Below, in pieces: positions 4,659 through 8,414 of a DNA stretch of 64,000 bases. The stretch comes from Halomonas sp. QHL1 (GTDB lineage Bacteria; Pseudomonadota; Gammaproteobacteria; Pseudomonadales; Halomonadaceae): the NCBI RefSeq assembly GCF_001882345.1, contig NZ_MINL01000001.1, positions 3,357,852-3,421,851 on the forward strand, in the 5' to 3' direction. Every line of letters starts with the position of its first letter. The stretch's first letter is position 1. The position numbers were made by a program, and so were the translations under genes. Below the pieces are notes generated by a model. It had not been told where the DNA came from. It made no database searches and saw only the letters and a list, made by a program, of their open reading frames with translations.

Positions 4659-5288
4659 ATGCGCGTGGAAGATTTACCCAAGGATCAGCATCGCCCCTAT
4701 GAAGATGTGATGGCGATGCTGCTGGGCACGTTCTTTGTCGCGCTGGGAGTGACCTTTTACACCCATGCAGTGCTGCTAACCGGCAGTACGGCAGGCTTAG
4801 CGCTGCTGCTTAGCTATATGACCAGCAGCGTTACCGGTTGGGGCTTTGGGGTGTACTTTTTTGCCATTAACCTGCCGTTTTACTACTTGGCGGTGAAGCG
4901 GATGGGGTGGAGTTTTACCCTGCGCACCTTCGCCGCCATCGGCTTGGTATCGCTGTTTTCGGAGCTAACCCAAGGCTGGGTGCAGTTTGCCAGCGTGCCC
5001 TCCATCTACGCTGCCTTAATGGGCGGCGCGCTGATGGGAATCGGTATGCTGATGCTATTTCGCCACCGCACCAGCCTGGGCGGTATCAATATCCTCGCGC
5101 TCTACTTGCAGGATAAACACGGCCTGCGCGCAGGCTACGTGCAGCTCGCCATCGATGGCGTTATTCTGTTGATTGCGTTAACGCAGCTACCGCTGGATCG
5201 CGTGGGCTACTCAGTGCTGGGGGCACTGACACTCAACCTGATTATCGCCTTGAACCATAAGCCAGGGCGCTATATTGGAGTGAGCTAA
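4659..5288 (+). CDS. YitT-family multi-pass membrane protein
   Basis: Inner-membrane protein of 209 residues with about five or six hydrophobic segments, beginning around residues 17-38 (MAMLLGTFFVALGVTFYTHA). The pattern TGSTAGLALLLSY followed by an FAINLPFYYLA helix and a second glycine-rich GGALMGIGMLMLFRHRTSLGG repeat resembles the YitT/DUF161 family, whose members are probable transporters without an established substrate. A ribosome binding site (AAGTAAGGA) lies before the ATG. It sits alone between recJ and the copper operon and converges on the latter, with only 6 bases between its stop and that of the microprotein on the other strand. Confidence 0.8.
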   Translation: MRVEDLPKDQHRPYEDVMAMLLGTFFVALGVTFYTHAVLLTGSTAGLALLLSYMTSSVTGWGFGVYFFAINLPFYYLAVKRMGWSFTLRTFAAIGLVSLFSELTQGWVQFASVPSIYAALMGGALMGIGMLMLFRHRTSLGGINILALYLQDKHGLRAGYVQLAIDGVILLIALTQLPLDRVGYSVLGALTLNLIIALNHKPGRYIGVS

Positions 5289-5294
5289 AAACGT

Positions 5295-5366
5295 TTAGCC
5301 AAGCCAGAACCACCACACTATCAGCGCGATTAGGCCCAGGCCTGCCAAGTTGATCAATAAACTCAT
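5295..5366 (-). CDS. 23-residue membrane microprotein behind copA
   Basis: A tiny reading frame starts in the copA stop: the sequence ATGA gives the ATG here (5366-5364) and the TGA of copA (5365-5363). It codes for 23 residues that begin [10 protein letters not shown] and end VWWFWLG, a single hydrophobic helix with an aromatic tail, and stops at a TAA at 5295. The 4-base overlap is the same coupling seen between merR and copA, which argues for real translation. From memory, the sequence resembles the N-terminal anchor of cupredoxin-domain proteins often encoded beside copA, so it may be the remnant of such a protein or a genuine small subunit. No cupredoxin domain follows on this strand. 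Confidence 0.6.
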
Positions 5367-7921
5367 GAGGCGTCCTCCTGGCTGGCTTTCCATAGCCGCA
5401 AGCGGTTGGCATTACTCACCACGGTGATGGAAGAGAGTGACATGGCAGCGCCCGCTATCATCGGTGAAAGCAGCATGCCGGTGAGCGGGTAGAGCACCCC
5501 CGCCGCGATGGGAATACACAGTAGGTTGTAGCCAAAGGCGCCCACCAGGTTCTGTTTGATATTGCGCAGCGTGGCGCGGCTAATCTCGATCGCAGACGCC
5601 ACCCCGTGCAGCGAGCCGCGCATTAGCGTGATGCCTGCGCTCTCAATGGCCACATCGGTGCCTTGGCCAATCGCAAAGCCCACATTCGCCCGGGCCAGCG
5701 CCGGGGCATCATTAATGCCATCGCCCACCATACCAACGATTTCTCCCGCCTTCTGGCGGCGCTCGATCTCGGCGTGCTTGTCCTCGGGTAACAGCCCTGC
5801 CCGAAACTCATCAATGCCCACTTCCTGGGCAATGGCTTTGGCGGTGTGCTCGTTATCGCCGGTTAACATAACGATGGTTAAGCCGTCTTTTTGCAGGCGC
5901 TTGATCGCGGCCACGGTGTCGTGGCGAAGCGGGTCGCTGATGCCAAACAGGGCGGCCAGTTTGCCATCCACCGCCAAGTACACCAGCGTGCGGGCCTGCT
6001 CCTCCAGGGCGCGGGCTTGCTCTTCACCTGCCTTGAGATCCACCCCTGCCTCGCTTAACAGACGCGCATTGCCCAGCAACAGCGCCTTGCCGTCGGCGGT
6101 TTGGGCTTTTACCCCGCCACCGGTCACGCTGTCGAAATCCTTAATCTCGGCAGGGTTGGCGTTGTGTTCCTCCGCGTAGGTCATTAGCGCCGCCGCCAGT
6201 GGGTGTTCGGAGCCGCGCTCCAGCGCGTTCACCAGCGCGAGTGCTGTGGATTGTTCCACGCCAAACATCTGCGCATCGGTAACGCTGGGCTTGCCCTGGG
6301 TGAGCGTGCCGGTCTTATCGACTACTAGCGTGGTCAGCTTGCTGGCGGTTTGCAGCGCCTCGCCGCTGCGTACCAGTACCCCATGCTCTGCCGCTTTACC
6401 GACGCCGATCATGGTCGAGATTGGCGTCGCCAGACCCAGCGCACAGGGGCAGGCAATAATCAGTACGGTGGTCGCCGTCACCAGCATATGGATCACCTGG
6501 GGAGCGGGCCCCAGGTTGAACCACACCAGGGCCGTCAATATGGCAATGATCATTACCGAAGGGACAAACACACTGGAGACCTGGTCGGCGAGCTCGCCAA
6601 TCGGTGGGCGCGAGTTTTGGGCGCTCGCTACCTGTTCGGTAATCTGCCCCAGGCGAGTGTCGGCGCCCACCCGCGTGGCGCGATAGATCAAGCTGCCCTT
6701 GCCATTCACCGTGCCAGCGCTGACTTCATCCCCCGCGCTTTTGGCGATGGGAAGCGGCTCGCCGGTCAGCATCGATTCATCGATATGGCTTTGACCCTCA
6801 ACGACCTCACCATCCACCGGTAAGCGCTCGCCAGGGCGCACTCGTACATGGTCGCCAGCACGCACCGCGTCAATATCCACTTCTTGCTCGTGACTGTCGC
6901 GAATCACCCGCGCGGTGCGGCTCTGCAGGTCAAGCAGACGCTTTAGCGCATTGCTGGTGCGGCCCCGGGCGCGTAGCTCCATGGCATTGCCGAGTAGGAT
7001 CAGTCCGATCACCATGGCAGAGGCTTCAAAATAGATACCCTGAGCGACTTCGGGCAGCCATGGCGCAAACAGCACTACGGCCATGGAGTAGAGCCAGGCG
7101 GTGCCGGTACCCATGGCAACCAATGTATCCATATTGGCTTGGCGATGCCTAAACTGCTTCCAGGCGTTGACGAAAAAGTGCCGCCCTGGGAAGGCCATAA
7201 TGCCCAGGGTTAATAGACCAATTACCAGCCAGTAGAGACGCCCTAACCCCATCGGGTGAGGGTGGAAAAAGAGCATGCTCACCATGAGCGGAATCGCCAG
7301 TGCCAACGAGATGGCGCTGCCGCGCAGCCGTTTTTGGTATGTCTTGGCATCCTGCTTTGCACGAGTGCGTTCGGCTTCCCGCATATCCACAATCGGTTCG
7401 GCGCCATAGCCAGCTGACTCAACGGCGGCGATTAACGCTTGGGTCTCGGCAATGCCAAACACCTGGGCGGAGTGGGTGCCAAAATTGACGCTGGCGGTGT
7501 CGACTCCCTCTGTGCGCTCTAGCGCTTTCTGAACGCTTTTGACGCAGCTGGCGCAGGTCATCCCGCTAATCACCAAGCGCTGCTTTTTGCCTTGCCCGTG
7601 AGAGTGGGGGCTTGAGCCTTTTTCAGCATCAGCGGGTGTTGCGATTTCTGGCTGTTGATCCGCTACATTCAGAGCAGCTTCGCCTGGCGGGTAGCCCGCC
7701 TCGGTCAAGCGTTGATCCAGCTCGGCGTCGGTTAGAGACGAAACAACCTCAAGGCGTTTTTCATTAGGCGTGCCGATCACATCGGCACTAGGGTCAACGC
7801 TTTGCACTGCCTCGCGCATACGCTTGACGCAGCCCTGGCAATTCATGCCAGGAATGGTTCGTGTGGTGGCTCCCTTGGCAGGGCTTTCGCTGGAGGCGGC
7901 TTCGGTAGAGGCGTCGCTCAT
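5363..7921 (-). CDS. copA: Cu(I)-exporting P1B-type ATPase
   Basis: Inner-membrane pump that drives Cu(I) out of the cytoplasm using ATP. The 852 residues carry two N-terminal heavy-metal-associated domains, with CxxC motifs at C28/C31 (GMNCQGC) and C123/C126 (GMTCASC), separated by a linker containing an HSHGQGKK stretch. The eight-helix core has the TM6 metal site CPC at 491-493, the phosphorylated aspartate D535 in DKTGT, an SEHP motif and GDGINDAP. The GYN of TM7 and MSLSS of TM8 are the signatures of Cu(I) pumps. The first metal domain is divergent. Its start overlaps the merR stop by 4 bases (ATGA), so regulator and pump are translationally coupled. Confidence 0.95.
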
Positions 7922-8346
7922 GGGGTCTCCTTGGTAGACGTTGCGTCAGGAAAACTCTCGATCAGGCGGCACACGCTGTGGCCGTCTGGGGAGCCATCGG
8001 GCATATGCTGCCAACTGGTCAAAGCATGCTCCATACGCTCAGCCAGTGCTTCGAGCTCAGCAATACGCGCCCGTATCTGAGGCAAACGGCTAGCGAGTAG
8101 ATCGCGGACTAACGGACACGGTGAGTCGCCTTGGTCTGCATGGGTCAGGATGTCGCGAATTTCCGCCACGCTAAAGCCTAGCTTTCGCGCCCGCTGGATA
8201 AACCGCAGCCGCTCTAAGTCGTTATCTGAAAATAGCTGATAGCCATTATCAGGGTGACGTTGCGGGGCAAGCAGCCGCTCACGAGCGTAGTGGCGAACGG
8301 TCTCCGCGGTAACCCCGCCACGTTTGGCAAGCTCGTTAACTTTCAT
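7918..8346 (-). CDS. MerR-family metal-responsive regulator of the copA operon
   Basis: Transcription activator of 142 residues with the MerR winged helix at the N-terminus ([26 protein letters not shown]), a long dimerisation helix and a short metal-binding tail. Only two cysteines are present: C77 (GDSPCPLV) and C126 (HSVCRLIE). CueR has its two cysteines in a single C-terminal loop and a serine near position 77, so this protein is not a typical CueR although it heads a copper-pump operon. The tail between residues 111 and 126 also offers H114, M115 and H123 as possible ligands. It is the first gene of the merR-copA-microprotein operon and probably regulates its own promoter. Confidence 0.88.
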
Positions 8347-8382: not shown

Positions 8383-8414
8383 AGTGTAGAACCTATGGGT
8401 TACCCATAGGTCAA
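8383..8414 (-). promoter_or_regulatory. MerR-type promoter and operator for merR-copA
   Basis: Read on the minus strand, TTGACC (8414-8409) and TACACT (8388-8383) are separated by 20 bases, the over-long spacer typical of promoters activated by MerR proteins through DNA distortion. The spacer is filled by a dyad at 8391-8411 with half-site ACCTATGGGT and one central base. A second dyad with half-site TAAATAGT lies at 8367-8383, just downstream of the -10 box. The arrangement closely resembles known copA promoters. Confidence 0.85.

Follow-up and report, generated by a model that had tools for sequence, protein, structure and literature searches.

We found that the copA gene of Halomonas sp. 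QHL1 is followed by a frame of 23 codons whose product, a single hydrophobic helix, appears to be the membrane anchor of a CupA-type Cu(I) chaperone without its cupredoxin domain. With a probability of roughly two in three, this anchor-only CupA has been kept as a single-helix membrane partner of CopA and is encoded by the third gene of a merR-copA operon. Sequence comparison supports the conservation of the frame, the purifying selection on it, its coupling to copA, its homology to CupA-type anchors, the recurrent change between a short and a long form of the protein, and the predicted topology.

The gene lies on the minus strand of the window, by which we mean the whole stretch of 64,000 nucleotides that was analysed, in the following surroundings:

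4659..5288, plus strand: YitT-family gene (PF02588), convergent
5295..5366, minus strand: microprotein ORF of 23 aa, ATG at 5366-5364 and TAA at 5297-5295, read from the sequence
5363..5366, minus strand: ATGA overlap of copA stop and microprotein start, from the sequence
5374..5379, minus strand: Shine-Dalgarno site AGGAGG within the 3' end of copA, from the sequence
5363..7921, minus strand: copA, Cu(I) P1B-type ATPase of 852 aa with two N-terminal HMA domains (TIGR01511, PF00122, PF00403)
7406..7570, minus strand: HMA domain 2 of CopA (PF00403; genome 3365257-3365421)
7691..7858, minus strand: HMA domain 1 of CopA (PF00403; genome 3365542-3365709)
7918..8346, minus strand: merR-family regulator (PF13411/PF09278), first gene of the operon, ATGA-coupled to copA
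8383..8414, minus strand: candidate MerR-type promoter/operator, read by eye, with TTGACC, a 20-bp spacer, TACACT and the dyad CCTATGGGTAACCCATAGG

The initial annotation had described the microprotein ATG as overlapping the copA TGA in an ATGA, with the frame open to a TAA, and had seen the same coupling at the merR-copA junction; the sequence bears out the former and the coordinates of merR and copA the latter. CopA itself scores 620 bits against TIGR01511 (cut-off 397) and matches PF00122 and, in two stretches, PF00403. Only 6 bp separate the stop of the microprotein ORF from that of the convergent YitT-family gene, which leaves no room for a cupredoxin remnant at this locus. The merR product exceeded the cut-off of no NCBIfam equivalog; the ZntR, CadR and MerR models scored best and CueR lower, all below cut-off, though the pump is a copper ATPase.

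The ORF behaves like a gene, which confirms the original observation. Its 23-residue product finds matches in 79 of 82 genomes of the genus and in 234 of 275 genomes of the family, covering 17 of the 24 family genera, and more widely in 124 of 390 genomes of the order, 66 of 321 of the class and 26 of 299 of the phylum; these counts include weak matches near the E limits (0.05 per genome for the family), not all of them read individually. Among the loci that were read, 60 from the genus and 40 from other genera of the family, the start codon is ATG without exception. In all, 102 of the 234 matching family genomes, that of the window included, were read. The overlap with copA is -4 in 59 of the 60 genus loci and in 36 of the 40 others. 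The sole exception within the genus (locus L032 of G054, a genome 74% complete) has both the ATGA and a Shine-Dalgarno site, and an intact copA end was not found there. Products measure 23-26 residues in the genus and 23-34 in the other family genera, and all three stop codons are in use among these loci.

Selection on the encoded protein is evident from a dN/dS of 0.068 among 58 unique genus sequences (pS 0.70, pN 0.13, with synonymous sites near saturation) and of 0.107 among 98 genus-plus-family sequences, and the entropies at codon positions 1, 2 and 3 of the 58 sequences are 0.57, 0.24 and 1.20. All 100 genus and family loci carry a GGAG within 20 nt upstream of the start, compared with 44 of 1800 control windows taken from more upstream parts of copA. 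Measured against the codons of CopA, this motif takes one of two phases (81 loci and 14 loci of the 95 scored), and is thus more than a by-product of the conserved CopA tail. We infer that the frame is translated; a chance ORF is ruled out by the genus and family matches, the dN/dS, the codon-position entropies and the upstream GGAG.

The peptide is under 50 aa long, and 20 of the 22 residues after its Met belong to the hydrophobic set AILMFVWCG, as expected for the single hydrophobic helix that had been proposed. In a simulation at the base composition of the window, an open 22-codon stretch with at least 19 of 22 residues from this set arose in 2.5e-5 of draws. The peptide has neither Cys nor His, its sole Met is the initiator, and no charged residue fixes its topology. 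Short forms matched no family over cut-off in the Pfam scan of two (window and L070) or the NCBIfam scan of four (window, L068, L069 and L070), the 23-residue form gave no match in the plasmid collection, and no anti-phage family was found at E 0.1.

The presence of the helix gene follows one type of CopA. Of the 41 family genomes that did not match the peptide, 20 were tested, and none holds a complete orthologue of the window CopA: six have no CopA match at E 1e-150 and the others reach at most 51% identity, except G204, which has a 68% match to a fragment truncated at the end of a contig. No such ORF stands downstream of 15 CopAs of other type, 14 from non-matching family genomes and one from the window's own genome (the fragment L127, which has no CopA end, was excluded). 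Across 35 genomes of the order, 15 copies of CopA share 52% identity or more with that of the window. Eleven of them carry the helix in its short or long form, one is cut by a contig end, and three of the 14 with a readable downstream region (L403, L405, L419) are without it. The helix follows none of the 13 less similar copies with readable ends. L404 and L413, situated at contig ends, were unusable. The tie between the helix gene and one CopA type is therefore strong but, given L403, L405 and L419, not absolute. Separately, a different, membrane-like protein of 44 residues (MMGSEACMWPMAGMG...) is encoded 26 bp after a copA of another type at L121 and L130 (G171), where it represents a second kind of small protein next to a copper pump.

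Outside the family, the same helix often runs on into a protein of 116-143 residues, typically about 117. The initial annotation had envisaged either a short frame with an immediate stop in relatives or a continuation into a cupredoxin, and both occur: the short form is kept in all 102 genomes read from the genus and family, own genome included, while the continuation is seen in other lineages. By genome read, the rest of the order gave 34 short and 57 long forms, the rest of the class 32 short and 22 long, and another class of the phylum nine long forms and one frameshifted. Most of these loci are found no more than 60 bp from a copA end, and the majority of short forms overlap it. Among the matches listed, bearers of the long form include Pseudoalteromonas, Alteromonas, Idiomarina, Thalassotalea, Shewanella, Alcanivorax and Kangiella. 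At four loci (L257-L260) an extra ORF lies between copA and the cupredoxin gene, which in L257 and L260 looks methyltransferase-like by eye.

The domain behind the helix in these long forms points to CupA. All seven scanned long forms match Cupredoxin_1 (PF13473), and a profile of eight long forms finds CupA of S. pneumoniae (PDB 2mry/4f2e) at E 2.5e-19 and the metal-binding domain of pneumococcal CopA (4f2f) at E 7.7e-15, with the ligand Cys and the C-x-M-x-M motif aligned between long forms and CupA. Of 175 long-form loci, 172 show the pattern C...C-x-M-x-M, and 158 do so when it is defined more strictly. Long forms that depart from it are L317 (His for the first Cys, no second Met), L234 (no second Met) and L315 (masked there). 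The AlphaFold model of one long form (pLDDT 85) predicts a helix at residues 2-21 and a beta domain, for which Foldseek returned 4f2e (E 1.6e-9) and 4f2f as the best PDB matches. Over residues 3-22 the window helix is 85% identical to a long-form anchor (G069 query). Homology of the window helix to the anchor of a copA-linked CupA-type protein is thereby supported at the sequence level, and so is the earlier impression that the helix recalls the anchor of cupredoxin proteins beside copA. The proposal that the peptide is either a truncated descendant of such a protein or a small pump partner gained support in both its parts, from the anchor homology and from purifying selection beside one CopA type.

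Plasmid records of Lactococcus, Listeria, Deinococcus, cyanobacteria and Hymenobacter contain long relatives as well. In Deinococcus the anchor has the sequence LIVNFAGLGVIAWIVWWFWLYK, and the gene encoding it overlaps with the end of a gene for a P-type ATPase; in Lactococcus the similarity of the anchor is lower. On one Lactococcus plasmid (L389), copY is followed by two cupredoxin genes, copA and a gene for a small cation transporter, the cupredoxin genes thus standing upstream of copA. A periplasmic cupredoxin of the CopI kind is disfavoured by the charges flanking the helix and by the CupA match.

Changes between the two forms recur on the CopA tree. A first tree of 190 CopA sequences requires 14 such changes, at least five of them forced by strongly supported branches; it sampled 11 genus loci, every second locus of other family genera, every fourth named locus and all other loci available, dropped 33 rows (20 duplicates, 10 without usable CopA, three without CopA) and left one outgroup row. 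A second tree of 120 rows, computed under a mixture model, yields 13 changes with at least three forced. It left out five rows (four long-branch, one frameshifted) and rows over 80% alike, and kept only eight random rows from the family loci first read; the window row is absent. The clade of the window's family is short throughout, with 49 rows including the window in the first tree and 22 rows without it in the second. Basal rows of the second tree (Lactococcus, Deinococcus, L336) are long, which makes domain loss the simpler direction, on a root that is uncertain and with Lactococcus as a long branch. Short forms would then have arisen by loss of the domain, the probable direction of the single changes. 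One short form of 22 residues, L253 (G500), sits amid long forms and is followed at once by an unrelated ORF; it looks like a recent domain loss.

The short genes show no remnant of the domain. A cupredoxin HMM run in three frames over up to 1200 nt downstream (E 1) found nothing in 197 of 198 loci with frames below 60 aa (169 genomes), and the single match, L360, is a frameshifted long form. Readthrough of the stop codon or a frameshift into a cupredoxin is unsupported, in view of these 197 empty loci and the 6 bp gap at the window. In four genomes of the genus (G041, G025, G023, G027) the long-form alignment runs past the helix through in-frame stops (query residues 36-64, 38-56% identity); the HMM scan does not bear these stretches out as remnants, though very eroded ones could escape it. 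A full-length copy elsewhere in the genome was found in none of 61 genus genomes, own included, at E 0.1.

The helix is conserved alike with and without the domain. In weighted comparison of 166 short and 137 long loci, Asn is kept in 96 and 99%, Gly in 96 and 96%, Leu in 89 and 86% and the last Trp in 98 and 97%, with the limits that the alignment anchor itself sets W19 and F20, which are left out of this argument, and that diverged copies would be missed, since loci were found through the helix or the long form. The periodicity of conservation is helical (shuffle p 0.021 and 0.022). Lys or Arg precedes the helix in none of 156 unique short forms and one of 130 long forms, and follows it in 82 and 123 of these, respectively. 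Such positive charge after, and hardly before, the helix predicts an N-out/C-in orientation, and a cytosolic C-terminus is accordingly the most likely topology. Three points go beyond the first reading of this DNA: the cupredoxin belongs to a Cu(I) chaperone of the CupA type, the C-terminus probably faces the cytosol, and switches between the two forms happen repeatedly on the CopA tree.

One group of short forms is longer, at 37-43 residues (group f20: L070, L157, L238, L239, L241, L251, L252, L254, L255, L269, L270, L272, L276, L287, L295, L297). All but L238 end in His-rich C-terminal tails (e.g. HSHHH, HQHHH), which are predicted to be cytosolic and possibly bind copper.

The number of HMA domains in the neighbouring CopA, counted by a simple pattern, is one in all 87 loci beside long forms. 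Beside short forms of the family the count is none in 2, one in 5, two in 24 and three in 8 loci; beside short forms elsewhere, it is none in 3, one in 16, two in 2 and three in 2. Extra HMA domains may therefore replace CupA in the window's family. This compensation is not general, because 16 short-form loci outside the family have a single-HMA CopA. No stand-alone CopZ was seen in the window's own genome, where each of the five HMA matches belongs to a frame of 746-860 codons.

These observations suggest that the anchor alone does something for the pump. In the mechanism we propose, the microprotein would be the third gene product of a merR-copA-microprotein operon and the free-standing membrane helix of a CupA-type Cu(I) chaperone, whose cupredoxin domain would have been lost and whose helix would have been kept in the window's lineage and several others. 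Lying most likely N-out/C-in, the helix probably packs on the membrane domain of CopA through a conserved face of Asn6, Gly9, Ile13, Ile16 and Phe20, with the W-W-F-W cluster placed at the cytosolic interface. We infer that this docking part of a former CupA binds CopA and now acts as a small structural or regulatory subunit, which may stabilise the pump or tune its activity. Copper would reach CopA without the CupA domain; in the window's family, the additional HMA domains of the pump are perhaps its route.

The homology to CupA-type anchors and the form changes on the CopA tree would also fit a neutral leftover, that is, a decaying and functionless CupA remnant or a frame kept only through its overlap with copA. 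We consider this very improbable: a dN/dS of 0.07 at near-saturated synonymous sites, whole CopA-tree clades that are short (49 rows, and 22 rows in the second tree) and a helix as well conserved as in the long forms all argue against decay, and the overlap with copA amounts to 4 nt only. Scarcely more probable is a service to another membrane complex, such as a terminal oxidase of which the helix would be a small subunit, encoded beside copA for co-regulation only. What hints at it are weak Pfam matches of the 41-aa L070 form to CydS (0.014) and FixQ (0.033); these are below the cut-offs and are not shared by the window peptide. Moreover, the gene tracks one CopA type and is missing together with that CopA in the genomes tested, the 15 CopAs of other type have no such ORF, and the long homologue belongs with a chaperone of CopA.

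Two further explanations concern what the helix might do beside CopA. Direct handling of copper by the short protein as a minimal chaperone is suggested by the His-rich tails on most f20 forms, yet the window peptide offers neither Cys nor His nor any Met besides the initiator, and tabulated short forms outside f20 have no His-rich tails, so that we regard this role as highly unlikely. A tentative reading, clearly less probable than the subunit role in general and in fact a special case of it, is that of a stability factor, in which the helix would shield CopA from FtsH and not act on transport. It draws on the analogy with MgtS and MgtU, proteins of the same size class that stabilise the P-type ATPases MgtA and MgtB, likewise metal pumps, against FtsH, as reported in the accessible text of PMC10710835. 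The sequence holds no evidence bearing on proteolysis, and both the overlap with the pump gene and the kinship with a chaperone anchor are unreported for MgtS and MgtU in that text. Our preferred reading is that of an anchor-only CupA kept as a membrane partner of CopA.

Among known systems, MgtS, MgtU and MgtR are small membrane proteins too, and they work on metal-transporting P-type ATPases (PMC10710835, accessible text). Their targets MgtA and MgtB are magnesium importers, in contrast to the P1B copper exporter CopA, and the window peptide matched none of the three in the Pfam and NCBIfam scans. KdpF is a single-helix peptide encoded together with its P-type pump, the potassium transporter KdpFABC. 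The window peptide did not match the KdpF family in the Pfam and NCBIfam scans either. A wider proposal is that one clade of P1B ATPases that export Cu(I) possesses a KdpF-like single-helix subunit of its own, derived from CupA that was stripped several times, with the anchor as a pump-docking subunit and more than a tether, and with a His-rich, probably cytosolic tail replacing the domain in one lineage; we regard the chances for and against it as evenly balanced.

Already known are CupA and a copA-linked cupredoxin domain-containing protein of Alteromonas (PMC8478169), which holds the same position after merR and copA as the window gene. In Alteromonas loci the match to the long-form query begins at residue 1 and takes in the helix. 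Unlike the window protein, the Alteromonas protein is full-length, and the accessible text of PMC8478169 mentions neither anchor nor CupA nor short form. We found no description of the short free-standing anchor in the open-licence literature.

CupA of S. pneumoniae binds copper by C74, C111, M113 and M115, and its residues 1-22 form a membrane leader (accessible text of PMC5646241). Like cupA, the window gene is encoded with copA, in a putative operon indicated by the ATGA overlap; the N-terminal leader helix of about 22 residues finds its counterpart through the long-form anchors. This likeness of the leader rests on the long forms, the pneumococcal leader being absent from the matched PDB chains. 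In contrast to CupA, the window protein has no cupredoxin domain (PF13473) and no Cys or Cys-x-Met-x-Met ligands, and its gene, unlike cupA, lies downstream of copA in an operon headed by merR. In S. pneumoniae, tethering CopZ to the CupA helix does not make it a replacement for CupA (accessible text of PMC7558416), so that the helix is insufficient for the job of CupA there; this result bears on chaperone function and not on a subunit role. The part of the CupA leader in the interaction with CopA is called speculative in the published work accessible to us, and the many species with only a CupA-type leader beside CopA represent a natural experiment on the role of this anchor. As far as the accessible text of a 2017 paper (PMC5646241) and a 2020 review (PMC7558416) goes, CupA is placed in only few streptococci. 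Unlike this reported range, the long forms described here occur throughout Gammaproteobacteria and a further class of the same phylum as well as in Deinococcus, Lactococcus, Listeria and cyanobacteria, which makes CupA-type chaperones far more widespread than these sources state.
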